A DNA stretch of 44,945 nucleotides from contig CALVCB010000012.1 in NCBI GenBank assembly GCA_944325965.1, positions 1 to 44,945 of the forward strand. The letters are read 5' to 3'. This DNA comes from an uncultured Bacteroidales bacterium (lineage in GTDB: Bacteria; Bacteroidota; Bacteroidia; Bacteroidales; UBA932). How positions within the stretch are numbered: the first letter of the stretch is position 1; each line of letters opens with the position of its first letter. The notes below the pieces were generated by a model. It was given only the letters and a program-made list of their open reading frames with translations. It ran no database searches and had not been told where the DNA came from. Of this stretch, positions 16,099-44,225 are shown one piece after another. The position numbers were made by a program, and so were the translations under genes.

Positions 16099-18312
<2,214 letters not shown>

Positions 18313-18315
18313 TTA

Positions 18316-20244: not shown

Positions 20245-20273
20245 TACGGATATAAATTTAGTGTTATTGAACA

Positions 20274-22598: not shown

Positions 22599-22623
22599 CC
22601 CGATATGTTTTTATTTTTCTGGC

Positions 22624-22678
22624 GGCATACGGACCGGCCAGGGTCCGTATGCCAATGTCGGTGTCCGCTCTGCGGACA
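22624..22678 (-). promoter_or_regulatory. Tandem RNA hairpins between the SusE/F-like and SusG-like genes
   Basis: On the minus-strand transcript, a 7-bp stem (TGTCCGC 22662-22668 with GCGGACA 22672-22678) is followed by a 12-bp perfect stem (GGCATACGGACC 22624-22635 with GGTCCGTATGCC 22642-22653, 6-base loop). They fill the 85-base gap after the SusE/F-like stop. The strand continues with an A-rich tract, not a T-run, so these look like 3'-end stabilisers or processing signals that could raise surface-binding proteins relative to the enzymes downstream. Confidence 0.75.
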
Positions 22679-22683
22679 TTCTG

Positions 22684-24498: not shown

Positions 24499-24510
24499 AG
24501 CGATAATCTA

Positions 24511-26106
24511 TTAATATCCAGGATTTTGAGTAAGTTTACCATTGCTGTTTATCTCGTTTGACGGGATAGGCATGAGGTTGAACTTGGAATCCACGCCTGT
24601 TCCCATATAGACATTGCCTTTCCATCTCCACAGGTAGTCACCTGAGGTAAACTTCCCGAAACGGACCAGGTCGGAACGTCTCCAGCACTCCCAGTACAGC
24701 TCCCTGCCGCGCTCATCGAGCATCTCGTCAAGGGTGTATTCGGAATCCGTCAGGGCATCTATCCCGGACCTTTCACGGACTGCGTTCCATGCCTCCCTGG
24801 CCTCGGTCTCCGTGGCGGTAGTGGCGCCCCTGAGCACGGCCTCGGCAAGCATCAGGTATGCGTCGGCAGTACGGAACAGAGGGAAGTCTGTATCAGGAAA
24901 GGAAGGATCCTGCGCGGCCGTACCGTCGCTCCTGACATTGGTGAACTTGTATGAAGACCAGCCGGACTTGAAGTCGGCGATGTCCTCTATGTCGCGAGGA
25001 TAGTTCCCGCCAGGGCCGCCGCCCCAGAACAGGTTGCGCTCGTCGCCGCTCTCGAACAGGTCGAGGAATTCAGGGGTCACCATAGTGCCGCCCCAGCCGT
25101 CATTCACGCCCATATGGGTCCACCAGTCAGGGGACTGGCCTGCGATGGAGGCCTTGATGATGAAATTGGTGCCTCCGAAAGTGCGGATCTGCACACCGTC
25201 CTGCGGAATATTGAAAATAATCTCGTCGGTCCTGGTGTCATTGTCCGCCATGAAAAGATGGGTATATTCATCATGGAGGGCAGGATAGCTGTCCTTTATT
25301 TCCTTGCAGACGGTAGCGCAGGCGTCGAAATACGGTTTGGCCTGTGCGTCGTCTATCCCGAGATACACGGCGGCATTGAGGTTCAGCTTGGCCTGGAGCA
25401 TCATCACGAACCCTTCGTCGAGACGCCCGTAGACATTGCCACCGACAGGCTTGAGGTTACCCTCGTCCCTGAGGGCCTGGCACTCGCCGAACATCCACTC
25501 CAGCAGATCGGCACGGTTTATCTGCTCCGGCCCGACATCCCCTACAGGGTCGGTCTCGCGGGCGTTCGGCACATTACCGAACATATCTATCGCATGGTAG
25601 TAGCTGAGCATCCTGAGGGCCCTCGCCTCGGCGATATAGGTCTTCATGGTCCCGCTTTCAGCGAACTCCGAGGCCGTAGCCCTGCGGATGAACTCGTTGC
25701 ACAGTCCGATCTGGAAGTATATGCGGGAGAACATCGCTGTCACGAACACATCGGAAGATGTCCATGAGAGCCCGTGCAGGCTCCTGAGAGTCTGGTCGTT
25801 CCACGGGCACACCGCCTCATCGGTAGTATATTCGTTCAGATAGAAGAGGGCCCTCACGTACTGGCCGTAGCCGCCGTCTATACCTTCTATGTCAGGAGAG
25901 CCGTTCTCGCCGTCGGAAGAACTGACCGTAAGCCCGGCATAGCATTTGGCCAGCAGCTGGGCATAAGCATCCTCGCTGGTGAGCACATCGCCAGGGAGTG
26001 TCACCGTAGGGTCAATCGGCTCGACATTCAGGTCGCCCACACAGGAGGCCAGAGATCCGAGAATGAAGGCCGACACCGCCATAAGTATCAATTTGTATCT
26101 TGTCAT
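24511..26106 (-). CDS. susD: SusD-family starch-binding lipoprotein of the Sus-like operon
   Basis: This 531-residue outer-membrane lipoprotein should form the lid of the SusC channel and bind substrate. The ATG at 26106 gives a good signal, ending SLASC with C22; an ATG five codons earlier is less likely. Features of the family include NVEPIDPTV just after the cysteine, an alpha-helical TPR-like scaffold (AEARALRMLSYYHAIDMFG near residues 140-160), and the C-terminal RGRELYWECWRRSDLVRFG signature, ending in IPSNEINSNGKLTQNPGY. It sits 18 bases after SusC, as usual for the pair. The symbol reflects the operon context; direct starch specificity is inferred from neighbours. Confidence 0.92.
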   Translation of the reverse strand: MTRYKLILMAVSAFILGSLASCVGDLNVEPIDPTVTLPGDVLTSEDAYAQLLAKCYAGLTVSSSDGENGSPDIEGIDGGYGQYVRALFYLNEYTTDEAVCPWNDQTLRSLHGLSWTSSDVFVTAMFSRIYFQIGLCNEFIRRATASEFAESGTMKTYIAEARALRMLSYYHAIDMFGNVPNARETDPVGDVGPEQINRADLLEWMFGECQALRDEGNLKPVGGNVYGRLDEGFVMMLQAKLNLNAAVYLGIDDAQAKPYFDACATVCKEIKDSYPALHDEYTHLFMADNDTRTDEIIFNIPQDGVQIRTFGGTNFIIKASIAGQSPDWWTHMGVNDGWGGTMVTPEFLDLFESGDERNLFWGGGPGGNYPRDIEDIADFKSGWSSYKFTNVRSDGTAAQDPSFPDTDFPLFRTADAYLMLAEAVLRGATTATETEAREAWNAVRERSGIDALTDSEYTLDEMLDERGRELYWECWRRSDLVRFGKFTSGDYLWRWKGNVYMGTGVDSKFNLMPIPSNEINSNGKLTQNPGY

Positions 26107-26124
26107 AAACCTATCCTCCAATTT

Positions 26125-29091: not shown

Positions 29092-29109
29092 AGGATTTTT
29101 GAATATTAA

Positions 29110-30477
29110 TTATATGGTTTTCAGAGATTTCTCCTTTACAAACGCCACAGATACCGCGGCAAGCAGCATGAACACTCCGGCCAGGAGCAGCATCATTGAC
29201 GCGTCGGAGCCAAAACAGCGGGTCACTATCAGGCCGCCGGTCAGCCCCATGAAGATCTGCGGGATGGTGATGGTGAAGTTGAAGATGCCCATATAGGCCC
29301 CCATATTGGCCGCATCGGCGGCACGTGAAAGGATAGAATACGGCATGGCAAGGATACCGGCCCACGCTATGCCTATCCCCACCATAGGGATCATGAGGGC
29401 GTACTGGTTGTGCAGAAGGTACAGCCCGGCGAAACCGAGGGCGCCGAACAGCAGGCAGACCGCATATACCGTCCTGTTGCCGAACCTGGCGGCAATCCTC
29501 CCGAGGAAGATGGCGGCGATGCAGGCAGGGACAGGGTAGATGCCGTTGAGCACCCCGACCCAGGTCTGGGTAGCGCCGTCCGGGAGAATCTGTCCCGAAG
29601 CATCGGTCACCACCCCGGTGATGGCCGGCTTAAGGTAAGTCCACATCATGAAAAGGGCGGCCCATGAGAAGAACTGTGTCACGCCCAGGCGCAGCATGAC
29701 GGAAGGCATGGTCCTGATCAGCCGGACAAAGCTCTTGCGCTCCGGCTTTACATCAGTCTCCGGTGCCCTGCCGGAAACGGATTCCCCTCCCGAAGGACCG
29801 TCCGCATACGGTAGCCCGTTATACTCCGCAAACTCCTTCGGAGGATATTCTTTCGTCTTGAATACGGTCACAAGCACGGTCACCAGGAGGATGATCCCGC
29901 CCGCATAGTAGGAATATGCTATATGCCTGGACACCTGGCCGGGGACGGCCTCGTCAGACACGCCCAGCCACGTCATCACCAGAGGCAGGAAAGCCCCGAT
30001 GACGGCGCCGAGATTGATCAGAAACGTCTGGACTACATAGCCTCCAGTCTTCTGAGAGTCATCCAGCATGTCCGCGACAAGGGCGCGGAACGGCTGCATT
30101 GTCACATTGAACGAGAGATCCATGAAGAGCAGGAGGAACGCCCCCATGGCAAGAGGTGCGAACGCCAGGAGGACCGGGCAGTTCGGCATGAGGAGCAGCG
30201 CTATGGTAGATATGATTGCTCCCCCCAATATGTAAGGGATGCGCCTGCCGAGCCTGGTCCATGTCCCGTCGGAGAACATGCCGACAATAGGCTGTATCAC
30301 CATCCCCGCAAGAGGGGCTGCCAGCCAGAAGTAGCTCAGGTGGCTAACGTCAGCTCCAAGGGACTCGAATATACTCGATGTATTGGAATTCTGTAGGGAA
30401 TACCCTATCTGGACACCGAGAAAACCGAAGCTGAGATTCCATATCTGCCAAAAGGATAATTTCGGCTTTCTTCCCAT
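29110..30477 (-). CDS. MFS maltose/maltooligosaccharide transporter (GPH/SLC45-like)
   Basis: This 455-residue inner-membrane protein has about 12 hydrophobic segments and resembles the sucrose/maltose branch of the MFS/GPH transporters. Recognisable parts are FWQIWNLSFGFLGVQIGYSLQ near the start (split here as FWQIWNLSFGFLG and VQIGYSLQ), the loop DGTWTRLGRRIPYILGG (about 79-95), and LAMPYSILSRAADAANMG in the second half. A soluble loop of about 50 residues divides the halves. It is the first gene of the Sus-like operon, behind a strong promoter, and should carry glucose, maltose or short maltooligosaccharides across the inner membrane. The original Bacteroides sus cluster does not include such a gene, whereas related loci in other species do. 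Confidence 0.87.
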   Translation of the reverse strand: MGRKPKLSFWQIWNLSFGFLGVQIGYSLQNSNTSSIFESLGADVSHLSYFWLAAPLAGMVIQPIVGMFSDGTWTRLGRRIPYILGGAIISTIALLLMPNCPVLLAFAPLAMGAFLLLFMDLSFNVTMQPFRALVADMLDDSQKTGGYVVQTFLINLGAVIGAFLPLVMTWLGVSDEAVPGQVSRHIAYSYYAGGIILLVTVLVTVFKTKEYPPKEFAEYNGLPYADGPSGGESVSGRAPETDVKPERKSFVRLIRTMPSVMLRLGVTQFFSWAALFMMWTYLKPAITGVVTDASGQILPDGATQTWVGVLNGIYPVPACIAAIFLGRIAARFGNRTVYAVCLLFGALGFAGLYLLHNQYALMIPMVGIGIAWAGILAMPYSILSRAADAANMGAYMGIFNFTITIPQIFMGLTGGLIVTRCFGSDASMMLLLAGVFMLLAAVSVAFVKEKSLKTI

Positions 30478-30795: not shown

Positions 30796-32172
30796 ATGAA
30801 ACAGCTGAAGACGTACGCCATAATCCATATTTTCGCTGTCATCCATGTGATAGCGACACTTCTGTGCAGACTTTCGGATGTGGATGATTCCCTCCTGCTC
30901 ACGCTTCTCACCATGGCCATGACCGTCATCGTATGCTTCCGGCGCGGGCTCAGCGTGGAGTTCACGGCCGCATTCATAGTGATAGTGAATATAGCCGGCT
31001 ACCTCATAGGGGTAAGCGGGGCCAGGCTGATAGGGCTCGTATCGGACTCTGTCCTGCTGGTGCATGCCCTGTCCACATTCCTCACCACTGAAATAATGGG
31101 CTGGAGCATCATAGGCATAACGAAACTTCTCCACATCGGCGATGAGACCAGGAAATTCCCCTGGGCCCTGCGTCTGAAGTGGCTCATCGTGGCTGTGGCC
31201 GTGATATTCGTCCTGCGGCTTGCATACACGGGGATATTCAACTCCAGGTACTTCTCCGCAGAAAGCACATACAGGATAATCCGGCTCCTTGCCAGCAACT
31301 CCGTCGCCCTGCTTCTGATGCTGTGCGCCGACATCATCTACATTCGCTACATGCGCAAAAGGCAGGCATCGGCCGGGGCTGTCACCAAAAACATGCTTTT
31401 CATAATATTCGTAGTGGCGGTGTCGGCCATCGCGTCCGTCATAGCGGGATACAACCTCCCGTTCAGGCTGAACCCCACATTCACCATGAGCGAGTTCCTG
31501 CTGCTCTTCATCATAACCCTCCTGGTGGAGCTGCTCCTGTACTGCATCCTGTACATGGTGGACTACGTGGCGGTGACCCGCAATGTCATGGTCAAGGAAA
31601 GGGAGAAGGCCCACCAGGCCCAGTTCCAGTACCTCAAGCTAAAGCAGCAGGTCAACCCGCACTTCCTTTTCAACTCCCTGAACATACTCGACTGCATGGT
31701 GCGCGAACAGAAGAACGCGGAGGCCAGCGAATACATCCACAAGCTCGCAGGCACATACAGGTACATGCTGCAGAACGAGACCAAGACCTTCGTCAGGCTC
31801 AAGGACGAGCTCACCTTCGTAAAGATGTATGAGGACCTCCTCACCGTAAGGTTTCCGGACGGGTTCAGGATAGACAACAGGATACCGGACGAGCTTCTGG
31901 ACCGGGAGGTCGTGCCCTGCTCCATACAGATGCTCGTGGAAAACGCCATAAAGCACAATGCGACCGATGCAGAGAGTCCCCTCACCATCACCATGACCTC
32001 CGACGGGAGCTCCATCACCGTAAGCAACAACATCAACCCGAAGATAACCGCAGCCCTCTCCACAAAAGTCGGGCTGAACTACATACGGCAGCAGTATCTG
32101 GACCTCACGGGACAGCATATCGGGGTATCGGACTCATCAGGGGTGTACAGCGTCACCCTGCCCCTGATATGA
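30796..32172 (+). CDS. LytS/YehU-type sensor histidine kinase
   Basis: This 458-residue membrane sensor has about seven or eight hydrophobic helices in residues 5-260, then a short coiled linker and a His_kinase (PF06580) catalytic region. The phosphoacceptor is H289 in QQVNPHFLFNSLN. The N-box is VENAIKHN (381-388). The final ATP-binding glycine box is degenerate: STKVGLNYIRQQY instead of the usual GxGLxNxRxRL. There is no separate periplasmic sensor domain, so the signal may be sensed within the membrane. The gene is followed after 42 bases by a LytTR response regulator, its evident partner, and then by histidine-degradation genes. The signal is unknown. Confidence 0.88.
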   Translation: MKQLKTYAIIHIFAVIHVIATLLCRLSDVDDSLLLTLLTMAMTVIVCFRRGLSVEFTAAFIVIVNIAGYLIGVSGARLIGLVSDSVLLVHALSTFLTTEIMGWSIIGITKLLHIGDETRKFPWALRLKWLIVAVAVIFVLRLAYTGIFNSRYFSAESTYRIIRLLASNSVALLLMLCADIIYIRYMRKRQASAGAVTKNMLFIIFVVAVSAIASVIAGYNLPFRLNPTFTMSEFLLLFIITLLVELLLYCILYMVDYVAVTRNVMVKEREKAHQAQFQYLKLKQQVNPHFLFNSLNILDCMVREQKNAEASEYIHKLAGTYRYMLQNETKTFVRLKDELTFVKMYEDLLTVRFPDGFRIDNRIPDELLDREVVPCSIQMLVENAIKHNATDAESPLTITMTSDGSSITVSNNINPKITAALSTKVGLNYIRQQYLDLTGQHIGVSDSSGVYSVTLPLI

Positions 32173-32214
32173 CGGGAGGAGAAAAAGTTTGAACAGAAAT
32201 AACCACATGATACA

Positions 32215-32970
32215 ATGACAAATGTTTTTATAGTAGAAGACGAAGCGCTGGCAAGGGACAACCTCTCGAAAGCCATCACATCAGCCTATCCTGACCTGAA
32301 GATAATCGGCACGGCCGGCTCTGTCCGCGATACCGTCAGCTGGCTCAAGGCCCATCCGGACGGGGCCGACATCATCTTCATGGACGTGGAGCTCTCGGAC
32401 GGGAACTGCTTCGAGATATTCAGGCAGGCAGACATAAAGGCCAAGGTGATAATGACCACAGCATACGACAATTACGCCATACAGGCGTTCGAGGTGAACA
32501 GCATCGACTACCTTCTGAAGCCTGTTGACCGTGACGCGCTGAAAAGGGCTGTCGGCCGGTGCCTATCCTCCCCGGGAGAGCCGGTCCGGGAAAAACTGGC
32601 ATCAATCACAATGCAGAAGCCCGAATACAGACAGAGATACATTGTCCGCATGAACGACAAGATCATGCCGGTGAAGGTCTCCGACATAGCCTATTTCTAC
32701 TCGGAGGAGAAAAACACCATACTCGTCACCTTCAATGGCATGAAATTCATAGTGGACTCCTCCCTCGATGTCCTCTCGGAGGAGGTCGACCCGGAGCAAT
32801 TCTTCCGTGTATCAAGGAACTGCATCCTGAACATGCAGGCTATAGAAAGCCTTGTCAAGCACCTCGGCAGCCGCCTGAAAGTAATTGCCAACCCTAAGCC
32901 CGACTTCGACATGACCGTCAGCCGCTCGCGCGTGGACGACTTCATGGACTGGCTTGAAGGGAGAAGATGA
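32215..32970 (+). CDS. LytTR-family response regulator
   Basis: This 251-residue transcription factor has a receiver domain (about 3-118) with E8/D9, phosphoacceptor D57 in IIFMDVELSDG, T82 and K102 in YLLKPVDRDALK, so phosphorylation should be intact. A LytTR DNA-binding domain occupies about 140-248 (VKVSDIAYFYSEEKNTIL, FRVSRNCILNMQAI, and SRSRVDDFMDWL). It is paired with the upstream LytS-type kinase and ends 25 bases before hutH, so the regulator and histidine ammonia-lyase genes are probably on one transcript. LytTR targets are typically spaced direct repeats; none was recognised by eye. Confidence 0.9.
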   Translation: MTNVFIVEDEALARDNLSKAITSAYPDLKIIGTAGSVRDTVSWLKAHPDGADIIFMDVELSDGNCFEIFRQADIKAKVIMTTAYDNYAIQAFEVNSIDYLLKPVDRDALKRAVGRCLSSPGEPVREKLASITMQKPEYRQRYIVRMNDKIMPVKVSDIAYFYSEEKNTILVTFNGMKFIVDSSLDVLSEEVDPEQFFRVSRNCILNMQAIESLVKHLGSRLKVIANPKPDFDMTVSRSRVDDFMDWLEGRR

Positions 32971-32995: not shown

Positions 32996-34477
32996 ATGGC
33001 AACATACTATATCTCCAGCAAAAAAATCACAATCACCAAGATCGACGAGATCATCTCCGGACACCACCATCTGGAGCTCAGCCCGGAATCGGAACATGCG
33101 GTGGCAAAATGCCGCCGGTATCTTGACTCCAAGATGGAGGACATCGGGCGCCCTGTATACGGGGTGACAACAGGTTTCGGCTCGCTGTGCAACATCACGA
33201 TTCCAGAGGAGGACCTGTCGGCCCTGCAGCACAACCTGGTAATGTCCCACGCCTGCGGGACCGGGGAGAAAGTCCGTCCTGAGATAGTTAAAATCATGCT
33301 CCTGCTGAAAATCCAGTCCCTTTCATACGGGTATTCGGGAGTGCAGACGGCAACGGTACGCAGGCTCATAGACATGTTCAACAACGATATCATCCCCGTA
33401 GTATACCAGCAGGGGTCGCTCGGGGCCTCGGGAGACCTTGCCCCTCTGGCGCACATGAGCCTGCCTCTCATCGGAATGGGGGAAGTGGAATACCAGGGGA
33501 AGATACTTCCGGCGGCACAGGTATGGGAATCCCTCGGGTGGAAGCCCCTGCGCCTACAGTCAAAAGAAGGCCTGGCCCTGCTTAACGGGACACAGTTCAT
33601 GAGCGCCCATGCCGTATGGTCGCTGATCCGGAGCAGGAAGCTCTCAGGCTGGGCTGACAGGATAGGGGCCATGTCGCTCGACGCCTTCGACGGCAGGATA
33701 GAGCCTTTCTGGCCGCAGACCCACAGGGTACGTCCACACAAAGGGCAGGCGGAGACAGCCGCAACGGTCATGGACCTGCTTGAAGGAAGCGAACTTATCC
33801 GCAGGAAAAAAGAACATGTCCAGGACCCGTACTCGTTCCGCTGCATACCGCAGGTACACGGCGCAAGCAAAGATACCATAGCATACGTGGAATCGGTAGT
33901 CGAGACGGAAATCAACAGCGCGACGGACAACCCTACCGTATTCCCGGACGAAGACCTCATCATCTCGGCAGGCAATTTCCACGGGCAGCCTCTCGCTATC
34001 GCAATGGACATGCTTGCTATTGCCCTTGCCGAGCTTGCGGACATCTCCGAAAGGCGTACATACAAACTCATCTCAGGGCAGAGGGGCCTGCCTAAATTCC
34101 TGGTTGCCAAGCCGGGACTGAACAGCGGTTTCATGATTCCGCAGTACACGGCCGCATCCATCGTCAGCCAGAACAAGGGCCTCTGCGCTCCGGCCAGCGT
34201 CGATTCCATACCTTCATCACAAGGCCAGGAAGACCATGTCAGCATGGGAGCGAACGCAGCCACAAAACTTGTCCGTGTAGTGGAAAATACCGAACGCGTA
34301 CTGGCAATCGAGCTTTTCAACGCCGCCCAGGCCCTCGATTTCCGCCGCCCGGCGCATTCTTCATGGGAGATAGAAAAAATACACGCTAAATACAGGAAAT
34401 CAGTCCCTTTCATCCAGGACGACACTTACATGCACCCGCTGATAGAAAAATCGGTGGAATTCATCAGAGGGGAATAG
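32996..34477 (+). CDS. hutH: Histidine ammonia-lyase
   Basis: This 493-residue cytoplasmic enzyme should convert L-histidine to trans-urocanate and ammonia, the first step of histidine degradation. The electrophilic MIO cofactor forms from A144-S145-G146 in GSLGASGDLAPLAH. Other family motifs are YGVTTGFGSL (55-64), with the catalytic tyrosine Y55, the later NPTVFPDED, and SSQGQEDHVSMGANAA. Length is slightly below the usual ~510. It is followed after 28 bases by hutI. Urocanate hydratase and the formiminoglutamate-processing genes are not in the window, so the pathway must be completed elsewhere. Related ammonia-lyases acting on tyrosine or phenylalanine are possible in principle, but the hutI neighbour supports histidine. 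Confidence 0.93.
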   Translation: MATYYISSKKITITKIDEIISGHHHLELSPESEHAVAKCRRYLDSKMEDIGRPVYGVTTGFGSLCNITIPEEDLSALQHNLVMSHACGTGEKVRPEIVKIMLLLKIQSLSYGYSGVQTATVRRLIDMFNNDIIPVVYQQGSLGASGDLAPLAHMSLPLIGMGEVEYQGKILPAAQVWESLGWKPLRLQSKEGLALLNGTQFMSAHAVWSLIRSRKLSGWADRIGAMSLDAFDGRIEPFWPQTHRVRPHKGQAETAATVMDLLEGSELIRRKKEHVQDPYSFRCIPQVHGASKDTIAYVESVVETEINSATDNPTVFPDEDLIISAGNFHGQPLAIAMDMLAIALAELADISERRTYKLISGQRGLPKFLVAKPGLNSGFMIPQYTAASIVSQNKGLCAPASVDSIPSSQGQEDHVSMGANAATKLVRVVENTERVLAIELFNAAQALDFRRPAHSSWEIEKIHAKYRKSVPFIQDDTYMHPLIEKSVEFIRGE

Positions 34478-34505
34478 TCCGCAGTCCAGCAAAAACCCCG
34501 GGAAC

Positions 34506-35759
34506 ATGAAAAAAACACTTATAAAGAACATAGGGAAAATCATCGGGATTGTCCCCGAAGGAAAGCTCAGGAAAGAAGGGGCTGAAATGGAGGAAGTCGA
34601 GACCCTTGAAGACGCCTGGCTGCTTATAGACGGGGAGAAGATACACTCTTTCGGCAGCGGGGAGCCTCCGGCAGGACTTTCATCCGGAGAACACACCGTA
34701 CGTACAATCGACGCAGGGGGCGGCTACGTAATGCCGGCATTCTGCGACTCCCACACGCACATAGTCTACGCCGGCTCACGCTACGGGGAATTCAGGGACA
34801 AGATCAACGGACTGTCCTACGAACAGATAGCGGAGCGCGGCGGAGGCATACTCAACTCCGCTGACCTGCTCCGTGAAACACCCGAGGAGGAGCTTTTCCG
34901 CCAGTCCCTGGAGCGTGCCGTAGAGGTCATGCACAAAGGCACAGGTGCCCTGGAAATCAAGAGCGGATACGGTCTTGACACTGAAAACGAGCTCAAGATG
35001 CTCCGTGTAATACGCCGTCTGAAAGCCGCCCTGCCTGTAGAGATACGCGCCACCTTCCTCGGTGCCCATGCCGTAGGCAGGGCATATACCGGAAGGCAGG
35101 GCGAATATGTGGACATGGTCTGCCATGAGATGCTGCCCGCCGTGGCCGCGGAGGGGCTTGCAGATTTCGTGGACGTGTTCTGCGACAGGGGGTTCTTCAC
35201 CCCGGAAGAAACATTGCAGATACTCGATGCCGCCCAGATGTACGGTCTGCGCGGGAAAATACATGCCAACGAGCTGGCCGTATCCGGAGGGGTCCAGGCG
35301 GGGGTAAGCCGCAACGCCCTGTCCGTTGACCATCTGGAGCAGACTGCACAGGCAGAGATTGACGCCCTGAAAGGCACGGAAACCATGCCGACCATGCTCC
35401 CTGGCGCATCATTCTTTTCAAGGCTGCCATACGGGCAGGCGAAAAATTTCATCCGCTCGGGCCTCGCAGTCGCACTGGCCTCGGACTACAACCCCGGCTC
35501 GTCGCCGAGCGGTGACATGCGTTTCGTAATGGCCCTGGGCTGCATACAGATGAGACTCACACCGGAAGAGGCATTCAACGCCTGCACACTCAACAGCGCA
35601 TACGCCATGGGCATCAGCCGCACCGTCGGATCCGTCACCGCCGGAAAGCTCGCCAACCTCATAGTCACCGTCCCGCTGCCGGACCTGGCCTTCATCCCCT
35701 ACAGCCACCACACCCCGTTCATAAGCAGGGTCATACTGAAAGGGGACATACAGTCATAA
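34506..35759 (+). CDS. hutI: Imidazolonepropionase
   Basis: This 417-residue metal-dependent amidohydrolase should open 4-imidazolone-5-propanoate to N-formimino-L-glutamate, the third step of histidine degradation. Metal and substrate residues are visible: H83 and H85 in DSHTHIVYAGSR, H188 in GAHAV, H253 and E256 in KIHANELA, H276, and D327 in LASDYNPGSSP. The EIKSGYGLDTENELKMLR stretch near 150 is typical for HutI. It lies directly after hutH in an apparent kinase-regulator-hutH-hutI transcript and is convergent with the AT-rich island across a hairpin. Confidence 0.93.
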   Translation: MKKTLIKNIGKIIGIVPEGKLRKEGAEMEEVETLEDAWLLIDGEKIHSFGSGEPPAGLSSGEHTVRTIDAGGGYVMPAFCDSHTHIVYAGSRYGEFRDKINGLSYEQIAERGGGILNSADLLRETPEEELFRQSLERAVEVMHKGTGALEIKSGYGLDTENELKMLRVIRRLKAALPVEIRATFLGAHAVGRAYTGRQGEYVDMVCHEMLPAVAAEGLADFVDVFCDRGFFTPEETLQILDAAQMYGLRGKIHANELAVSGGVQAGVSRNALSVDHLEQTAQAEIDALKGTETMPTMLPGASFFSRLPYGQAKNFIRSGLAVALASDYNPGSSPSGDMRFVMALGCIQMRLTPEEAFNACTLNSAYAMGISRTVGSVTAGKLANLIVTVPLPDLAFIPYSHHTPFISRVILKGDIQS

Positions 35760-35827: not shown

Positions 35828-35846
35828 AAAACATTAACAAATTCAG

Positions 35847-36740
35847 TTAAAGAGGCAATGTAAAATCCATCATCAATGGAAGATGGTCCGATGCTTCCGA
35901 TGTAAAATCATCTAAGACCGTATCCGCATAATTGACATTCCGGAATACACACGGAGTACAGTAAATAAAATCTATCCTCGATTTACCGTTATTCATACTC
36001 GGTTCAAAACCGTCATGTGTATCACCAATTACATCGTTCTTATAATATTTCCTTATCATCCTGTGTACATCATAATTCCGGTCCGTATAAAACTTCATGT
36101 CCACAGGTGAAACAGAATTGAAATCCCCTGTCATTATCCAGTACTTCTCATCTTTGAAACGAGGATTACATATTGTTGAATCAAGGATAGTCCGCATCTC
36201 ATAGACACGAAAAGCATCGCCTCCGTTATCTTTTTTGGTTACATCATCCATTGAATACTTCTGAGGCCACAAATGAAGAATCACATAATTCACCCCGCAT
36301 ATCCTGACATGCATTGCCCCATGAGACAAACCTTTTCCTATTCTCTGAACCACCTCTATCGGGTATCTGGATGTCACTGCTACCGGATAATTGTCCTGAT
36401 AAGGCCCTACGGCACAATAACCATGTCCCCACCTTGCCGCCAGGGTTCCTAGACTATCCGGAAGATACCTTGGCACAATATCAGCACTTCTGCTCACCTT
36501 GTTCTCATCCCAATGCGTTGCGCCTTCACATAAAGTAAGCACATCGGGGGCCATTGAATTGACCCAGAATACGAACCGGTCATAATCATTATACTGGTCA
36601 TACCACATCCCGTTAAGTATATTGTAATCAATCAAACGGATTTTCCTGCCTCCATACTCTTTGCCGGCAGCAACCAATGCCGGCAAAGCAACCAAAAACA
36701 GCACTCCGATAAATATTCCCTTAAAAATCGATTTTTTCAT
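35847..36740 (-). CDS. Secreted endonuclease/exonuclease/phosphatase (EEP)-fold hydrolase
   Basis: This 297-residue protein has a signal peptide (MKKSIFKGIFIGVLFLVAL, cleavage near residue 25); the ATG at 36740 was chosen over one three codons earlier for this reason. All EEP-fold catalytic positions are present: N40 in DYNILNG, E72 in LCEGAT, H156 in ILHLWP, D206 and N208 in MTGDFNS, D257 in SRIDFIY, and D285/H286 in SDHLP. The fold covers DNases, sphingomyelinases, inositol phosphatases and other metal-dependent phosphoesterases. Being last in a sigma/FecR/SusC/SusD operon, 12 bases after SusD, it more likely removes phosphate or splits a phosphodiester in the imported substrate than degrades DNA. 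Exact substrate is unknown. Confidence 0.85.
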   Translation of the reverse strand: MKKSIFKGIFIGVLFLVALPALVAAGKEYGGRKIRLIDYNILNGMWYDQYNDYDRFVFWVNSMAPDVLTLCEGATHWDENKVSRSADIVPRYLPDSLGTLAARWGHGYCAVGPYQDNYPVAVTSRYPIEVVQRIGKGLSHGAMHVRICGVNYVILHLWPQKYSMDDVTKKDNGGDAFRVYEMRTILDSTICNPRFKDEKYWIMTGDFNSVSPVDMKFYTDRNYDVHRMIRKYYKNDVIGDTHDGFEPSMNNGKSRIDFIYCTPCVFRNVNYADTVLDDFTSEASDHLPLMMDFTLPL

Positions 36741-36752
36741 AACATACATTTA

Positions 36753-38051
36753 TCAATATCCTTCATTCTGATCAAGAAGATCATTCAATGTTCTCTGGGC
36801 ATCAGGGACAGGGAAAAGCAGCTGATAAGACTGCATCCCAGATATGGTCGACAGGGCTTTACCAGTCCGTACAAGATCATAGTACCTATGGTTTTCACCA
36901 AGAAATTCAAATCTGCGCTCATTCAGCACCGCATCAAGAAATGTATCTGCAGTCACATCAGCGTCTCCAAGTCCTCTTTCTTTTCTCAACTCATTAAGTC
37001 GAGCCAGTCCGTTTGGATACCCTTGTGCCTCTGCACTAACAAGGTACATCTCAGCAATCCTCGAAATTATTATCGGATCTGTAAATGATTGCCCTCCACG
37101 GTATTTATGGACACAATAATGATAAATTGTACTCGGATCTTCCGTTTCTATATAAATACCCTGTGTCTTCCTTATATCCCCATTTTCAAAAGCATTGTAC
37201 GTGTCGTCGCTCACGTAGAACCATCCACCGCCTTTATTTACGTAATTGTAGGTATAGAACTGGCTCCCCAAATAGATTCCATTTTCCGTAGACTGGTTCG
37301 AAAAGGCGAAAATAGTTTCGGTATTAGTATCTGCCCCGAAGATATTGTCAAAAGAATCAAGGGAGTATCTACCACATGTAATCAAAGATTCCGCCAGATC
37401 TGCTGCTTCCTTGTTCTTGCCTTCATAAAGGAAGACCCTTGCTTTCAATGCTTTCAGCGCATCATCAGACACATAATAGTAAGAAGAACTCGGTCCGAGC
37501 AGATTTTCTGCATTCTCAATATTTTCTTCGATGAATGCCCAAACATCTTCGACAGGATCCCTGGGCACCTTTTCCATTGTATTGGTCCTAAGAATAGGAA
37601 CTTTGCCCCATCGTGTCACTAGCTCTGTATAGATAAGTGCCCTGAAATAATAGGCTTCACCAAGGTATGTCCTTACTTCCTCCGAACTGCTCTGAAACCT
37701 TTCACACGTACTTATCAAATTGTTGACCTGATACAACGCCTCATAATATCCGTTCCATTGTCCTGATATGACACCGCTCAAAGCTGTCATCTGGTTGTTT
37801 ATATAGTTGATCGGCTCTGCCGACTGAGAATATAGGAAATCCCCTCCGAAAATATCGAATGCGATATAAGAATATGCTCCAGGTTTATGTTGTACCATAT
37901 TATACATTCCCGTCCTCATGGCAGCTAGGTCTGATTCAGATACGGCATCGGGAGAGGCGGATGTATGAGGATATTTATCAAGCAGTCCGGTACATGAATT
38001 AAACAAATACATCACTGCCGGCAATAACGTTAAAATATATCTTATTTTCAT
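36753..38051 (-). CDS. SusD/RagB-family lipoprotein of the island
   Basis: This 432-residue lipoprotein (MKIRYILTLLPAVMYLFNSC, C20) should be the substrate-binding lid of the adjacent SusC-type transporter. It has the family's opening (LLDKYPHTSASPDAVSESDL), helical scaffold (YLGEAYYFRALIYTELVTRWG split as YLGEAYYFRAL and TELVTRWG), and the C-terminal VLNERRFEFLGENHRYYDL signature with LFPVPDAQRTLNDLLDQNEGY-type ending (final DQNEGY). It is shorter than the starch-locus SusD and not closely similar to it, so a different ligand is expected. It starts 19 bases after SusC and is followed after 12 bases by the EEP-type hydrolase. Confidence 0.9.
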   Translation of the reverse strand: MKIRYILTLLPAVMYLFNSCTGLLDKYPHTSASPDAVSESDLAAMRTGMYNMVQHKPGAYSYIAFDIFGGDFLYSQSAEPINYINNQMTALSGVISGQWNGYYEALYQVNNLISTCERFQSSSEEVRTYLGEAYYFRALIYTELVTRWGKVPILRTNTMEKVPRDPVEDVWAFIEENIENAENLLGPSSSYYYVSDDALKALKARVFLYEGKNKEAADLAESLITCGRYSLDSFDNIFGADTNTETIFAFSNQSTENGIYLGSQFYTYNYVNKGGGWFYVSDDTYNAFENGDIRKTQGIYIETEDPSTIYHYCVHKYRGGQSFTDPIIISRIAEMYLVSAEAQGYPNGLARLNELRKERGLGDADVTADTFLDAVLNERRFEFLGENHRYYDLVRTGKALSTISGMQSYQLLFPVPDAQRTLNDLLDQNEGY

Positions 38052-38070
38052 ACCTGTCTCCTTTTTTTAA

Positions 38071-41000
38071 TTAAAGTGAAAGATTGACTCCGAATGAATA
38101 GATTCTCGGTTGCGGGATATTCAAATTGTCTACACCGATATATCTTGCGTCATTGTTTGTATTGACCTCTGGATCCCATCCCGGATATTTTGAAACTAGG
38201 AATACATTATCAACTGAAAAATAAACTCTCAATGATGAAATACGGGCCTTCGACAGAAGACTTGTCGGGAAATTGTATGCCAATGTAAGATTCCTCAGTC
38301 TCAGGAATGACCCGTCATGCAGGAAGAAATCCGAATTCAAAGTATTAAGAGTACTGTTATAATATGGTCTCGGATACCAGTTCTCTCCTGAACCAGGAGT
38401 CCAATAATGCGTAGCATGTTCTTTTGTAATGTTGGCCTTGTATGCCCGGCGTGAATAATTGAACTCCTGTCCGGAATACACATCATTGCCGTACATATAC
38501 GTAAAGAATAGATCCAGTGTCCAGTTCTTAAATGAGAAAGTATTACTCCAGCCTCCCTGAAAATCAGGAGTAGGAGATCCTATGACCATTCTGTCATCAG
38601 TATCCGTAAGATTACCATCTGAATTTATATCCCGGTATTTGATGTCTCCGGCTCTATAACCTTTTGCATATAATGTAGCTGGGACTTCACTGTCAGATTG
38701 GTAAATACCATCATGCTTATAGAGATAAAATGCACCGAGTTCTTCACCTACCCTGAGAATTCTCTGGGTACCATAAGTCGTGCTGTTATTCGCTCCTATA
38801 ATTATATCCTCATCTCCGACCAGACTCAGAATTCTGTTGGCATTAGTGGAAATATTGAAATTCGTACTCCAGTGCACAGGTCCGAAATCCACCTCACCTC
38901 CTATGGTCAGTTCCAGGCCTTTATTCTCCATAGACCCGACATTGCTTATAATAGATGACACGCCTGATGTAGTATAAATAGGCTTGGCATACAAAAGGTC
39001 CGTTGTCTTTTTGTAATATGCATCGAAAATCAATGTAAGCCTGTTGTCAAAGAAACCGAGATCAAATCCGGCATCCCACTGGCCAGCCTTCTCCCAGGTA
39101 AGTCCGGAATTTCCAAAATCCGTGACTGCGATTCCGCCAATTCCTTCATAGTTATAACCGCCATCCATCTTTGCCAAATATGCATAATAATCAATGCCTT
39201 CCTGATTTCCGGTCTTACCGTAGCTGACTCTTACTTTCATATCAATGCCTGAACCCTTCATGAATTCTTCATTAGATACATTCCATCCGAAAGACACGGA
39301 CGGGAACCATCCCCACCTATAATCTCGGGCAAACTTAGACGATCCATCTGTTCGCAGAGAACCAGTCAGAGTATACCTGTCTTTATAAGAAAAATTCACA
39401 CGTCCGAAGAATGATTCCATCGCATAACTCATAATCTGCCCATCATATCCGTCTATCGATGCTGCCGCCCCCATTGCATCGAATGCATCTGAAGGGAAAC
39501 CTTTACCAAGCATATACTTATAGTCGGAATCCAGCATCTGCAGTGAATGACCCAACATGGCACTGAATCCAAAAGAATCATTCAGGAAGGTATCGTTATA
39601 ACTCAGCACATTATCAATTACTATGTTTCTAATAAGCTTATTGGCATCTACAAGTCCAAAAGTCTTCACATACGGATGCTTGGAAGAATAATGTTTATAG
39701 TCCCGATTGTATGTAACGTCTGTACTGAGCGTATTCTTAAAAGTCAGCCTGTCATCAAGAAACTTCAGAGTAAAATAATAGCTTCCGAGAAACCTATATG
39801 ACTCAAGAAATGTATTGGCTTCGTTCAGGATAGCGGCAGGGTTATGGTATGTAAGTTCATTTGTACCGCCTACAGTATATTTACCATCATCATGATATGC
39901 CTTGTCAAACGGTCTCTGAAGGACGCATCTGCCAAGAATCATCGAACCAAGGCTCACACCCGGAACTTGATGGTTTTTCATATAATTGGCAGATGTATTT
40001 GCTCCGACTTCAAGCCAATTGTTGAATTTATGGTCTATCCTGGCCTTGAAGTTGAATTTATCCAATTTATTCGTCTTGATAATTCCTTTGTTATGGTTAT
40101 AACTTCCTCCGATATAGAAATTAGTTTTTTCATTTCCTCCGGAAAAAGAAAGATTCGCATTCCAGAAATTACCGAGCTGTACTGCATATGAAAGCCAGTC
40201 CGTAGTTTCCGTAGTACCTGGATCCAGATACTCAAGGGAAGAACCGGTCTGCGCATTATAGTTGTCTATACCGATATTGTACTGTTTCAGATATTCCTCT
40301 GTATTCGCCATCTGAAGCCTTCCGATATTAGGGAACTGGTTGATTCCTGCACTGAGATTCACATTCAGTATAGACTTTCCCTTCTTACCTGATTTTGTGG
40401 TAATTACCACCACTCCATTACTTGCGCGGGAACCGTAAATAGATGCAGAAGCTGCATCTTTAAGGACTTCAATGCTTTCTATATCGGCAACATTAAGCAC
40501 TGCCAGAGGGCTCATATTCTCTCCGAAATTATAAAGATTTGCGTTACTGTTATCGATAGGGATGCCGTCTATTACATAAAGAGGATCATTCCCGGCCTGA
40601 ATAGACGAGGCCCCTCGTATGCTGACCCTTTCTCCCGCACCGAGGGCTCCAGAAGAAGCAAACGAAGTCACACCTGCGATTCGTCCGTTCAAAAGGGCTG
40701 TAGGGCTACTTACTTCTCTCATATTGCTTTCATCTATCTCTACTCTACTTATGGCACTGGAAACAAGAGAACGTTTCATTGTACCATAGCCGACAACAAC
40801 TACTTCATCGAGAAATTCAGCAGACTCTCTCAAAATGAAGTTGACGGAACCCATTTTTTCAGTTATTGCCATTTCTTTGGGCTCATACCCAAGACAAGCA
40901 CACTCTAGTAATGTCGCTCCACCTTCAATCTCCAAAGACCAGTTGCCATCCAAATCAGTAGTAGTACCATTAGATGTGCCTTTCTCAAAAACGGATGCCC

Positions 41001-41415
41001 CGGGAACCCCCGTTCCAGTTCCATCCAAGACCTTTCCCGTTATACGGTAAGGTTCTAATTTGGATGAAGCGACACCCTGTTTACTGAGCCGAATCACATT
41101 ATCATTAATTTCAGACTTGATTCCTTGGGAAGAAAAAATCCTATCAAGAACAGATGAAAGTGGCTCATTCCTAACAGAAATTGAAACTTTCCTACTCAAA
41201 TCAATGCCATCAGTCCTTATCACAAACGACAATCCATATTTGGATTTCAATGAATTAAGGACTTTCTCAACAGATACGTCCTGCATATTCAGAGTAACAA
41301 GGCCGGAGTCTTGTGCATACGCAGTCTGACCTGAGAACAAAAAAGCCAGACTCAGCGGCAACAGCCATTTAAACAGCTGACGGACAAATTTTAAGTCAAA
41401 GGCAATACTCATCAT
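38071..41415 (-). CDS. SusC-family TonB-dependent transporter/transducer with N-terminal STN domain
   Basis: This 1114-residue outer-membrane protein should both import a ligand and signal its presence. The start at 41415 (MMSIAFDLKF) gives a signal peptide ending TAYA near residue 34 and avoids overlap with the FecR gene; 41412 is equally possible. An STN domain lies at about 38-110 (LNMQDVSVEKVLNSLKSKYG), then a carboxypeptidase-regulatory-like domain at about 125-198, a TonB-box-like FLDEVVVVGYGTMKRS (201-216), the plug, and a barrel ending RIYSFGVNLSL. STN domains contact FecR anti-sigma factors in the periplasm, and such a gene lies directly upstream, with a sigma factor before it. The ligand is unknown. 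Confidence 0.92.
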   Translation of the reverse strand: MMSIAFDLKFVRQLFKWLLPLSLAFLFSGQTAYAQDSGLVTLNMQDVSVEKVLNSLKSKYGLSFVIRTDGIDLSRKVSISVRNEPLSSVLDRIFSSQGIKSEINDNVIRLSKQGVASSKLEPYRITGKVLDGTGTGVPGASVFEKGTSNGTTTDLDGNWSLEIEGGATLLECACLGYEPKEMAITEKMGSVNFILRESAEFLDEVVVVGYGTMKRSLVSSAISRVEIDESNMREVSSPTALLNGRIAGVTSFASSGALGAGERVSIRGASSIQAGNDPLYVIDGIPIDNSNANLYNFGENMSPLAVLNVADIESIEVLKDAASASIYGSRASNGVVVITTKSGKKGKSILNVNLSAGINQFPNIGRLQMANTEEYLKQYNIGIDNYNAQTGSSLEYLDPGTTETTDWLSYAVQLGNFWNANLSFSGGNEKTNFYIGGSYNHNKGIIKTNKLDKFNFKARIDHKFNNWLEVGANTSANYMKNHQVPGVSLGSMILGRCVLQRPFDKAYHDDGKYTVGGTNELTYHNPAAILNEANTFLESYRFLGSYYFTLKFLDDRLTFKNTLSTDVTYNRDYKHYSSKHPYVKTFGLVDANKLIRNIVIDNVLSYNDTFLNDSFGFSAMLGHSLQMLDSDYKYMLGKGFPSDAFDAMGAAASIDGYDGQIMSYAMESFFGRVNFSYKDRYTLTGSLRTDGSSKFARDYRWGWFPSVSFGWNVSNEEFMKGSGIDMKVRVSYGKTGNQEGIDYYAYLAKMDGGYNYEGIGGIAVTDFGNSGLTWEKAGQWDAGFDLGFFDNRLTLIFDAYYKKTTDLLYAKPIYTTSGVSSIISNVGSMENKGLELTIGGEVDFGPVHWSTNFNISTNANRILSLVGDEDIIIGANNSTTYGTQRILRVGEELGAFYLYKHDGIYQSDSEVPATLYAKGYRAGDIKYRDINSDGNLTDTDDRMVIGSPTPDFQGGWSNTFSFKNWTLDLFFTYMYGNDVYSGQEFNYSRRAYKANITKEHATHYWTPGSGENWYPRPYYNSTLNTLNSDFFLHDGSFLRLRNLTLAYNFPTSLLSKARISSLRVYFSVDNVFLVSKYPGWDPEVNTNNDARYIGVDNLNIPQPRIYSFGVNLSL

Positions 41416-41443
41416 AAATGTTTGATTAAGGTTAGACTTATAG

Positions 41444-42421
41444 TCATTTATATATTTCAATGTAATTACCTTCTCTTTTTACATTATAATTACCATCAAT
41501 ATTCAGGGCCGACAATATCCTGTCTGCATCTTCTCCCCTTACAAAACTAGCATAGTATATTTCTTCGGCTATTTCAGGGTCCTTTATCACTATCTTTACC
41601 CCAAAGCGCCGTTCGAGATCTTTTGCTATCTGGGACAAAGTCATATGATAGGCATTGAATTCACCTTTGAACCATGCCGGATACGAATCCAGATTTACCT
41701 GGAACATGTCAAGTTCCTCTTTTATCCTATCATATAAGAGAGACTTTCCCGGCAATAATGCCACAGTATCACATCCTGGTATTCCTACTGTTACGCCCCC
41801 CTCCATCAGAGTGGTAGTCACAGTGCCGTCCTCCTGATATGCTTTTACATTGAACTTGGTGCCAGTAACACGGATCTCTGTTCCACCTGCATTGACGATA
41901 AACGGATGGAGGGGATCTTTCTCTACTTCAATATATATCTCCCCAGAAAGATAGATTTTCCTTTCATAACCTATAAATTCTTCAGGATAGAGAATTCTGG
42001 AACCAGAATTGATCCAGATTCTCGAACTGTCAGGCAGAATAAGCTCCGAAATCTCGCCATAATCCGTACATACCTCCGTCCAAGCAATGATTTTCACATT
42101 TTCCTCCTGATGCTTTGAGATATATGAAATACCAGCCAGAAAACCTATTATAGCGACGACTACAGCGACTAATCCGGAAAGGAGCAATCTGATTGTTGAT
42201 GAAGATATACTGTAGAAACATCCAGTTCTTAATCGGAATGACCGGAAAGCGGACTCTATTTCACAATCTTCAATTTTGTTTTCCGGATTTTCCCACAAAT
42301 CACGGCTAGCACGATCAAATTCCGAATCGGACATTTCTGACAATATTTTGCCTATACGGTCCGGATCCTGGGATTTTACAACATCTAAAAATTCTTTCTC
42401 TTTATTCTTGTTAAGGGACAT
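41444..42421 (-). CDS. FecR-family anti-sigma factor
   Basis: This protein of about 325 residues should hold the ECF sigma factor inactive until the STN domain of the neighbouring SusC signals ligand. The cytoplasmic N-terminal part (about 1-70, MSLNKNKEKEFLDVVK) has charged helices. One membrane helix follows near 75-98 (LLLSGLVAVVVAIIGFLAG), then the periplasmic FecR domain (about 115-235; ELILPDSSRIWINSGSRILY, FIVNAGGTEIRVTGTKFNV) and a C-terminal DUF4974-like region that likely contacts STN. Two earlier ATGs exist; 42421 was chosen because it starts at the usual distance before the first charged helix. The gene lies 58 bases after the sigma gene. Confidence 0.9.
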   Translation of the reverse strand: MSLNKNKEKEFLDVVKSQDPDRIGKILSEMSDSEFDRASRDLWENPENKIEDCEIESAFRSFRLRTGCFYSISSSTIRLLLSGLVAVVVAIIGFLAGISYISKHQEENVKIIAWTEVCTDYGEISELILPDSSRIWINSGSRILYPEEFIGYERKIYLSGEIYIEVEKDPLHPFIVNAGGTEIRVTGTKFNVKAYQEDGTVTTTLMEGGVTVGIPGCDTVALLPGKSLLYDRIKEELDMFQVNLDSYPAWFKGEFNAYHMTLSQIAKDLERRFGVKIVIKDPEIAEEIYYASFVRGEDADRILSALNIDGNYNVKREGNYIEIYK

Positions 42422-42479
42422 TATGAAGTATGCCATATTTATGTTTCCATAAATAATACGGAAAAACACTACGGCACAC

Positions 42480-43064
42480 TTAATCTGATTTCAAGAAAAG
42501 TGAAAGATCTACAGGGTTTATTTTTAAAGAAAAAGCCAACTCATTTCGTATCTGTCTAAGTGCTAGGTTAATATGTTTTTCTACAGTTCTTATGGAAATT
42601 CCGAATCTGTTAGCAGTATCCTTATTTGAGCGTCCGAAATACCTGCTTGATATAAATATTTCCCTTCTCGTTGACGGCATAGACGCGACAATCCTATCTA
42701 TTATTCCAGAGATAATCCGATAATCAACCATACTATTTTGTACGAATTCTTCCGAAAGTTCTTCTGCCAGTTCTTTTCTGAATTTCATGGCAACTGCACG
42801 GTGGCGATACCAGTCCATAATCTCATTTCGGGAAACCATGAATACGTAACCTGACAGTCCATCACCGTAACCTTTTTCGGGAACAATCCTGTTCCTGTTT
42901 AACCATACCTTCACAAAAACATTCTGCACTATCTCATCCACGGCCCACTGCTCAGGAACCATCTTGGAGACAAAACCGTATATTCTGGAATAATAAAGTC
43001 TGTAGAACCTATGCCAGGCCTTCATATTCCCATTCCGAATAAGTTCAATAAATATATAATCCAT
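42480..43064 (-). CDS. ECF (FecI/Bacteroidetes RpoE-type) RNA polymerase sigma factor
   Basis: This 194-residue sigma factor should activate the SusC/SusD operon when released by the FecR protein. Region 2 covers about 14-90 (FYRLYYSRIYGFVSKMV, WAVDEIVQNVFVKVWLNR, with the -10-binding part SGYVFMVSRNEIMDWYR). Region 4 covers about 125-180 (MPSTRREIFISSRYFGRSNK and the helix-turn-helix ANRFGISIRTVEKHINLALR). The length and layout are those of FecI-like Bacteroidota sigma factors. It is the first gene of the minus-strand island operon and is divergent from the phosphodiester glycosidase gene across a 169-base AT-rich gap. Confidence 0.93.
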   Translation of the reverse strand: MDYIFIELIRNGNMKAWHRFYRLYYSRIYGFVSKMVPEQWAVDEIVQNVFVKVWLNRNRIVPEKGYGDGLSGYVFMVSRNEIMDWYRHRAVAMKFRKELAEELSEEFVQNSMVDYRIISGIIDRIVASMPSTRREIFISSRYFGRSNKDTANRFGISIRTVEKHINLALRQIRNELAFSLKINPVDLSLFLKSD

Positions 43065-43096
43065 TTTTACTGTCTGTGTCTTTCCCTATATCATTA

Positions 43097-43104
43097 CAAA
43101 GATA
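43097..43104 (-). promoter_or_regulatory. Putative -7 box (TATCTTTG) for the sigma factor gene
   Basis: The minus strand reads TATCTTTG 32 bases before the sigma ATG, a full match to TAnnTTTG. No clear TTG occurs about 20 bases upstream. It may be housekeeping expression of sigma and anti-sigma. Confidence 0.5.
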
Positions 43105-43205
43105 TTGATTTACTTCTTTCACCATACAGTTCCGAGAATTTCTTAATAAATTATTAATTTTTTCAAATAATTATTAAACTAAATGTTCAATATGCTATTA
43201 ATTTA

Positions 43206-43213
43206 TATTTTTG
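43206..43213 (+). promoter_or_regulatory. Putative -7 box (TATTTTTG) for the phosphodiester glycosidase gene
   Basis: TATTTTTG fully matches TAnnTTTG and ends 20 bases before the ATG at 43234, giving a very short leader. The -33 region has GTTC instead of TTG. The gap is strongly AT-rich, which lowers the weight of the match. Confidence 0.45.
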
Positions 43214-43233
43214 CATCATAAATATTATAGAAT

Positions 43234-44088
43234 ATGGACAATAGATTTTTCCTCATCGCAGCTTTCTTTGCAATCATCTATCCATTACAACATGCTAAAG
43301 CCCAAGACTCTAATGATTCACTGGCTTTTGTATCCGCCAACTGGAACTGGCAGGAAATCGGCAATGGAGCTAAAGCAGGATATGCACAATTCAGAATATT
43401 CGGCAGCACACAGAGCATCTCCATCGTAAAATATCCTGCCCGAAAATTTAGGACACAAATAATCAATTCACCAGGAAATATTGCAAACACTACAGATTCT
43501 CTTGCCATGAAGTACGCCTCATTGGTAGCAATCAACGGCAGTTTCTTCAACACCAAGACATTATATCCTCACACTTTCTTAAGTATTAACCATAAGATAG
43601 AAGGCATATCTTCCGCCCACGAATACAGAAGATCGAACGGAATTCTAGCATTCAAGGACAGGAAAGGCAGAAAAATGGATATTTTTCTCTGCGACACAAG
43701 TTCATACGCGAAGTACAGCAAGAAATATTACTATGCAATAGCAGCCGGTCCTCTGCTTTTGCTAGACGGAAAGAATGCACATATCGATACCAACATGGAA
43801 TTCAATTCTACAAGACACCCTAGAAGCATAATAGGTTACGACAATAACGGATATTATTACATGATAGTCATAGACGGACGTTTTCCAGGACAGGGAGAAG
43901 GTATTTCAATCCCTGAAGCAGTAGCAGTTGCCCGTTATGCTGGACTGAAGGAAGCAATCAATCTTGACGGTGGTGGATCCTCGACCTTGTGGACAGAGCC
44001 CACTGGAGTCATCAACCACCCTTGTGACAATAAAAAATTCGACCATGCAGGTTGCCGTATTGTCCCTAACTTAATCATTGCAAGATGA
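43234..44088 (+). CDS. Secreted phosphodiester glycosidase (NAGPA/DUF2233 family)
   Basis: This 284-residue protein has a signal peptide (cleavage after HAKA, residue 23) and matches the NAGPA/DUF2233 fold. The members known in animals remove GlcNAc from a GlcNAc-phosphate-mannose diester. Family motifs are AINGSFF (99-105), TRHPRSIIGYD (193-203), IDGRFPGQGEGISIPEAV in the middle (213-230), and NLDGGGSSTLW (243-253). It is divergent from the island's sigma factor. With the EEP-type hydrolase it suggests processing of a glycan or lipid containing sugar-phosphate diesters. Bacterial members are poorly characterised, so substrate and even exact bond are inferred. Base composition matches the island rather than ferritin. 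Confidence 0.87.
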   Translation: MDNRFFLIAAFFAIIYPLQHAKAQDSNDSLAFVSANWNWQEIGNGAKAGYAQFRIFGSTQSISIVKYPARKFRTQIINSPGNIANTTDSLAMKYASLVAINGSFFNTKTLYPHTFLSINHKIEGISSAHEYRRSNGILAFKDRKGRKMDIFLCDTSSYAKYSKKYYYAIAAGPLLLLDGKNAHIDTNMEFNSTRHPRSIIGYDNNGYYYMIVIDGRFPGQGEGISIPEAVAVARYAGLKEAINLDGGGSSTLWTEPTGVINHPCDNKKFDHAGCRIVPNLIIAR

Positions 44089-44225
44089 CAGGCTTGCCTC
44101 ACCAAATTCCTTACGGATAAGTATTAAAAATTTCCGATAGCCAGATTAGCTCATGGCAAACCACTGAAAATCAACAAATTGTCGCTGAAAGAGCAGAATA
44201 AATTCGTTGGACCGACGTTATATAG

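Follow-up and report, generated by a model that had tools for sequence, protein, structure and literature searches.

What does a Sus-type importer take up when no recognised carbohydrate-active enzyme (CAZyme) is encoded with it? The question is raised by a locus of an uncultured gut Bacteroidales bacterium, found in a 44,945-nucleotide stretch of DNA (the window, i.e., the whole stretch analysed) from an assembly of 2.06 Mb in 109 contigs that is 78% complete. A minus-strand operon (35847-43064) encodes an extracytoplasmic function (ECF) sigma factor, a FecR, an STN-bearing SusC, a SusD, and a secreted protein of the EEP phosphoesterase family. A secreted NAGPA/DUF2233 protein is encoded outside the operon on the plus strand (43234-44088), divergently and 169 bp from the sigma gene. 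The original prediction had read this arrangement as an uptake system for phosphodiester-linked glycans with its own sigma relay. Its six genes lie at or very near the places it had assigned to them, and each is recognised by profiles. Its statement that glycoside hydrolases (GHs), lyases, and sulfatases are absent was borne out for all six proteins, none of which was matched by such models in Pfam (E<=0.01). No recognised CAZyme (GH or polysaccharide lyase) was found among the six with Pfam, and the term polysaccharide utilisation locus (PUL) is applied here broadly, to any SusCD locus. Comparison with related loci strongly supports a gene linkage of SusC, SusD, and NAGPA.

The linkage is seen across Bacteroidota. 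We scanned one-per-species genomes of the phylum by SusD alignment and used the best 80 of 481 confirmed relatives, whose SusDs share 41-54% identity with that of the window. NAGPA is encoded directly after SusD in 79 of these 80 loci, a count to be read knowing that the 11 SusDs aligned with the window SusD all came from NAGPA-bearing loci, that NAGPA itself was no ranking criterion, and that related loci are not independent. The sole exception is the window locus, where EEP takes the slot. The 80 loci include the window's own, 11 more appear to be shared with the genus set described below, and three lacking a contiguous gene chain (L136, L168, and L195) were kept in the denominators. The loci occur in Bacteroides, Alistipes, Dysgonomonas, Paludibacter, Proteiniphilum, Prevotella, Sphingobacterium, Pedobacter, Parapedobacter, Niabella, Chitinophaga, Rufibacter, Pontibacter, Myroides, and other genera; isolates that carry them include Bacteroides xylanisolvens XB1A, B. 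acidifaciens, Pedobacter nyackensis, and Chitinophaga species. A FecR gene lies upstream in 73 of the 80 and a sigma gene in 67, making the sigma relay the norm for this type of locus, as predicted for the window. NAGPA is followed by a protein of BACON/beta-helix type (45/80), NHL type (19/80), or BACON-LRR type (7/80). When a Bacteroides NAGPA of the slot type was used as query, matches at E<=1e-25 were found in 2 of 296 phylum genomes. The SusC-SusD-NAGPA type is taxonomically wide, but sparse at this threshold.

Within the genus of the window, a search with the window SusD (E<=1e-40, five SusD candidates scored per genome) gave matches in at least 42 of 300 genomes. It listed 56 places, namely the window and 55 others that were examined as loci; NAGPA occupies the slot after SusD in 40 of these 55. 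The window SusD belongs to the NAGPA-linked SusD clade. In 12 genus genomes, NAGPA was found within 7 kb of 13 of the 14 SusDs of this clade vs 6 of 143 other SusDs (Fisher p ~1e-13), although the genomes were selected for holding a clade SusD, the best 150 of 323 SusD matches were used, and the loci are related. The part of the original prediction that expected DUF2233 genes to recur beside orthologous SusCD pairs is thus upheld. The same expectation for EEP failed: EEP was found within 10 kb in only 7 of the 80 phylum and 17 of the 55 genus loci (the sets overlap), and never in loci without NAGPA.

The window NAGPA (284 aa, 43234-44088, plus strand) is assigned to PF09992 by its profile score (101.6 bits, cut-off 25), its predicted fold, and its DGGGS motif. 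Vertebrate NAGPA, the lysosomal uncovering enzyme, removes N-acetylglucosamine (GlcNAc) from GlcNAc-1-P-6-Man. The window protein shares family, predicted fold, and motif with this enzyme and with the structure 3OHG (BACOVA_00430, a DUF2233 protein of Bacteroides ovatus). It differs from them by its bacterial setting in the first case and by sequence in both: its model (predicted local distance difference test [pLDDT] 88.7) aligns with vertebrate NAGPA at a template modelling (TM) score of 0.63-0.69 and 17-19% identity and with 3OHG at a TM score of 0.72 and 18% identity. In the NAGPA tree, rooted at the midpoint, the window protein falls in a 52-member clade (support 1.0) that holds the second NAGPA of loci from Bacteroides, Mariniphaga, Olivibacter, and others. 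This type, NAGPA-b, is separate from most of the SusD-adjacent proteins, NAGPA-a; the slot protein of one phylum locus (L126) is of b type. A lipoprotein pattern was found in 60 of 76 slot NAGPAs, with a suitable cysteine seen by eye in 14 of the remaining 16, and in 1 of 10 b-type NAGPAs. NAGPA-b of the window is presumably a periplasmic enzyme.

How does the window depart from its relatives? Its cluster contains NAGPA as the divergent NAGPA-b, and its operon has no NAGPA directly after SusD and no BACON/beta-helix, BACON-LRR, or NHL-propeller gene; EEP is the last gene. The genome with the closest NAGPA (G077) carries its locus at the equivalent chromosomal position, flanked by hutI and ferritin, with 70% identity for the divergent NAGPA, 79% for sigma, 67% for FecR, 60% for SusC, and 56% for SusD. 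There, SusD is followed by a second NAGPA of a type, a beta-helix/BACON protein, and a His_Phos_2 protein (24.8 bits, cut-off 23.6). Another genome (G118) has the order SusC-SusD-NAGPA-EEP, with another NAGPA divergent upstream. The window locus is a derived member of the class of NAGPA-marked Sus loci, one that keeps NAGPA-b and has EEP in the slot in the absence of NAGPA-a and of a surface-type partner. A second NAGPA was not found in the 78%-complete assembly, which gave one match in total. Because of this, and because the operon has neither NAGPA-a nor a BACON or NHL partner, the organism probably imports fragments that other organisms produce.

Gene content, orthology, conserved neighbourhood, predicted folds, and conserved residues lead us to propose activities, localisation, induction, and substrate as follows. 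SusD and SusC would bind and import an oligosaccharide with a sugar-1-phosphodiester bond. Binding of the ligand would be relayed to FecR by the STN domain of SusC, freeing the ECF sigma factor, which would activate the operon and, probably, also the NAGPA gene divergent from it. In the periplasm, NAGPA-b would hydrolyse the glycosyl-phosphodiester bond to a free sugar and a phosphomonoester, from which EEP would then take off the phosphate, unless it cuts a second phosphodiester. Related loci additionally code for NAGPA-a, a lipoprotein, together with a protein of BACON/beta-helix or NHL-propeller type. We give this account of a sigma/FecR-controlled SusCD locus that imports sugar-1-phosphodiester oligosaccharides, for cleavage by NAGPA and dephosphorylation by EEP, a probability of roughly 0.58. 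A wider proposal, for which we see slightly less than an even chance, is that SusC-SusD-NAGPA is an old, patchily retained module of Bacteroidota for phosphodiester-joined glycans such as phosphomannan, teichoic-acid-like, or capsular polymers, which uses uncovering-enzyme chemistry as a means of feeding and leaves the last step to interchangeable phosphatases, and that the window is a pared-down fragment scavenger without the lipoprotein enzyme.

The architecture resembles that of the Sus-like PULs regulated by ECF sigma and FecR, with their SusC/SusD pair, STN-SusC, FecR, ECF sigma, and clustered secreted enzymes, but the window operon has no CAZyme-type GH or lyase, and the constant partner in its relatives is NAGPA. 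Might the locus then be an ordinary PUL with an unclassified enzyme, in which NAGPA acts on, or merely binds, a non-phosphorylated glycan and the phosphatases are incidental? Several observations speak for caution over the phosphodiester account. We know of no activity for these proteins. NAGPA genes also occur often in the genus at places other than this type of locus (195 of 300 genomes), and in the genus clade ten loci that retain SusCD have lost NAGPA. In the SusD tree, these ten and one locus that kept NAGPA (L112) form a clade of eleven (support 0.966), and four more distant loci also lack NAGPA. The tree was rooted near four distant loci that do not form a clade; its root is therefore uncertain, and with it the ancestral state. 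The contiguous operon after SusD shows none of the four kinds of phosphoesterase sought in 64 of the 80 phylum loci, and EEP is conserved across neither the phylum nor the genus loci. EEPs are moreover common near other SusDs and in the genomes as a whole, which have 5 to 26 each, and the fold ranking of the window EEP is led by mostly DNA-acting enzymes (AP endonucleases and exonuclease III relatives). Finally, the DGGGS motif is missing in 16 of the 79 slot NAGPAs of the phylum set (of which one, in L136, is cut by the contig end). It is also missing in 11 of the 40 slot NAGPAs of the genus. Many of the loci whose slot NAGPA lacks the motif have another NAGPA some 6.5 kb further along. The lack of the motif suggests that part of the family may be non-catalytic, possibly with a binding role, and it slightly lowers the odds of the phosphodiester account.

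The operons without a second phosphoesterase and the slot NAGPAs without DGGGS favour a non-phosphorylated glycan, as do the GH20, GDSL/CE2 esterases, DUF4434, and aldose epimerase found in some loci. Against it, the fold of the window NAGPA matches that of vertebrate NAGPA with DGGGS retained, and alkaline phosphatase, EEP, His_Phos_2, or type I phosphodiesterase recur in the related loci. We regard this alternative as unlikely, if the most serious of those considered. Slot NAGPAs without the motif were recorded in L073-L081, L155, L159, L162-L165, L168, L170, L172, L176, L180, L182, L183, L195, and L196. As for the genus loci, related SusCD loci without NAGPA include L104-L109, L113, L114, and L123, several of which have adjoining GDSL-esterase and GH3 genes. 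In L076 (1276-3003), AP_endonuc_2, a xylose-isomerase-like TIM barrel, is fused to NAGPA, and four operons of the phylum set encode relatives of this barrel as separate proteins.

The original prediction had argued from two phosphate-ester enzymes to a phosphorylated glycan. At least 16 of the 80 contiguous operons contain one of the four kinds after SusD, a lower bound because unrecognised genes of the chains were scanned in part (10). Alkaline phosphatase (PF00245-type) is present in nine operons and follows NAGPA-b in Bacteroides loci, EEP is present in five (the window included), and a type I phosphodiesterase (PF01663) in that of L137. A 668-aa protein of L162 (18008-20014) has a C-terminal NAGPA and a marginal N-terminal His_Phos_2 match (23.4 bits, cut-off 23.6). 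The replacement of EEP by alkaline phosphatase, His_Phos_2, or type I phosphodiesterase in some loci fits phosphorylated glycans. Phosphoester chemistry thus seems to recur through interchangeable families, though most operons show none of those sought. EEP was itself considered as a hallmark of the locus and rejected, its excess near the clade SusDs being weak: by Pfam, EEP was found near 2 of 14 clade SusDs vs 7 of 143 others within 7 kb (p=0.19) and near 4 of 14 vs 11 of 143 within 10 kb (p=0.03), a comparison that is an undercount and not symmetric, being made with the best 150 of 161 matches of a six-frame search, among which the EEP of G118 (L071; 36 bits as protein) does not figure.

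Phosphatases beside a SusCD pair also suggest another possibility, namely that the importer takes up organophosphates from which the enzymes free phosphate. The Flavobacterium PUS loci offer a precedent: as reported (PMC8115612), their PusCD complexes, which are SusCD-like importers, adjoin phosphatases and phosphodiesterases without a classical CAZyme and are induced by low phosphate. The alkaline phosphatases of the nine operons would suit this role. The window type differs in its sigma/FecR genes and NAGPA partner. Its ECF sigma/FecR/STN wiring, shared by most of the phylum loci, suggests ligand sensing rather than phosphate sensing, and NAGPA is not named in the passages on PUS. We consider phosphate scavenging improbable.

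The EEP protein (300 aa, 35847-36749, minus strand) is assigned to PF03372 by its score (31.1 bits, cut-off 24.5) and by its conserved residues, since it keeps those invariant among 22 aligned homologues, e.g., N43, E75, H159, D209, N211, D288, and H289. Its closest homologue found (50% identity) comes from a metagenome-assembled genome of Alistipes and lies near the same kind of locus (L198). The predicted structure (pLDDT 85.0) has many EEP enzymes among its matches, with identities of 13-19% in the 50 best rows, and these fold matches name no substrate. A nuclease role for EEP, with nucleic acids or nucleotides as what the locus imports, is very improbable: AP endonucleases and exonuclease III relatives do top its ranking, and a survey suggests nucleic acids for CAZyme-free SusCD loci with phosphodiesterases of PF00149/PF01663 (PMC6499787), but matches of such low identity set no substrate, and an enzyme found in so few loci cannot define the ligand of the transporter. 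EEP-family matches are numerous in two genus genomes (26 in G239 and 24 in G176), some of them in open frames of more than 1,000 codons.

If the substrate is a phosphodiester-joined glycan, which one might it be? A phosphorylated mannan-type glycan (phosphomannan) is our leading guess from the gene data, because 11 of the 29 best genus NAGPA matches after the window's own are fusions of a GH92 to NAGPA, with 46-53% identity to the window domain. The fusions fall in the window NAGPA's part of the tree, within a 25-member clade (support 0.928); the support of a tighter grouping is 0.104. The GH92 alpha-mannosidases, found in alpha-mannan and N-glycan loci, are related to the window through these 11 proteins, and the family includes a mannose-phosphate-mannose mannosidase (PMC9522356). 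Unlike the alpha-mannan PULs, the window locus has no GH92; none was found on its contig either, and the assembly has six GH92 genes elsewhere. The two GH92-NAGPA loci scanned (L215 and L216) encode alongside the fusion a BACON/OB-fold protein and an OMP_b-brl_4 barrel, a different outer-membrane barrel. Teichoic-acid-like or capsular phosphoglycans are possible alternative substrates. In one branch, GH20 lies near one or two NAGPAs, which hints at N-acetylhexosamine. The fusions are about 980-1010 aa long (L035-L040, L042, L043, L049, L053, and L056; wider context in L213-L219).

The class of NAGPA-marked Sus loci appears undescribed in the open-licence PubMed Central (PMC) literature searched, in which we found no description of SusCD-NAGPA loci. 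The survey mentioned above reports 14,713 SusCD loci that have no known CAZyme, sulfatase, or peptidase; of these, 576 carry phosphodiesterases from two other families (PMC6499787). If the proposed phosphodiester reading is true, the SusC-SusD-NAGPA triad gives one group of CAZyme-free SusCD loci a testable chemistry, the DUF2233 proteins of bacteria, among them the structural orphan 3OHG, gain a biological setting, and the loci point to bacterial enzymes that trim phosphorylated N-glycans. The pairing of importer and enzyme in distantly related Bacteroidota may be a sign that phosphate-joined sugars are used as food in a little-known way.

The remaining genes of the window operon, all on the minus strand, are as follows. 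The ECF sigma factor (194 aa, 42480-43064) is matched by sigma70-ECF (81.4 bits, cut-off 42.9) and, slightly below the cut-off of 126.4, by Sig70_bacteroi1 (118.7 bits). The FecR-type anti-sigma factor (341 aa, 41444-42469) is matched by FecR (59.6 bits) and FecR_C (51.3 bits). The SusC-type TonB-dependent importer (38071-41460) has an N-terminal STN (46.8 bits) and matches to Plug (64.7 bits), OMP_RagA_SusC (839 bits), and CarbopepD_reg_2; its start as listed is TTG, and the true start may be further in. The SusD-type lipoprotein (432 aa, 36753-38051) is matched by SusD-like_3 (70 bits) and SusD_RagB (64 bits), and its stop is 3 bp from the start of the EEP gene. By the gene coordinates, 169 bp (43065-43233) separate the sigma gene from the NAGPA gene, and this region is the presumed site of both promoters.

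Two other features of the window were recorded. Genes for a histidine kinase (PF06580) and a LytTR response regulator form a pair (30796-32970) beside open reading frames at 32996-35759, which we take to be hutH and hutI. A separate starch-type PUL (16099-30477) encodes SusC, SusD, SusE, and a major facilitator superfamily transporter, together with two proteins with GH13-type matches and one that is alpha-galactosidase-like (RetAlphGalac model).

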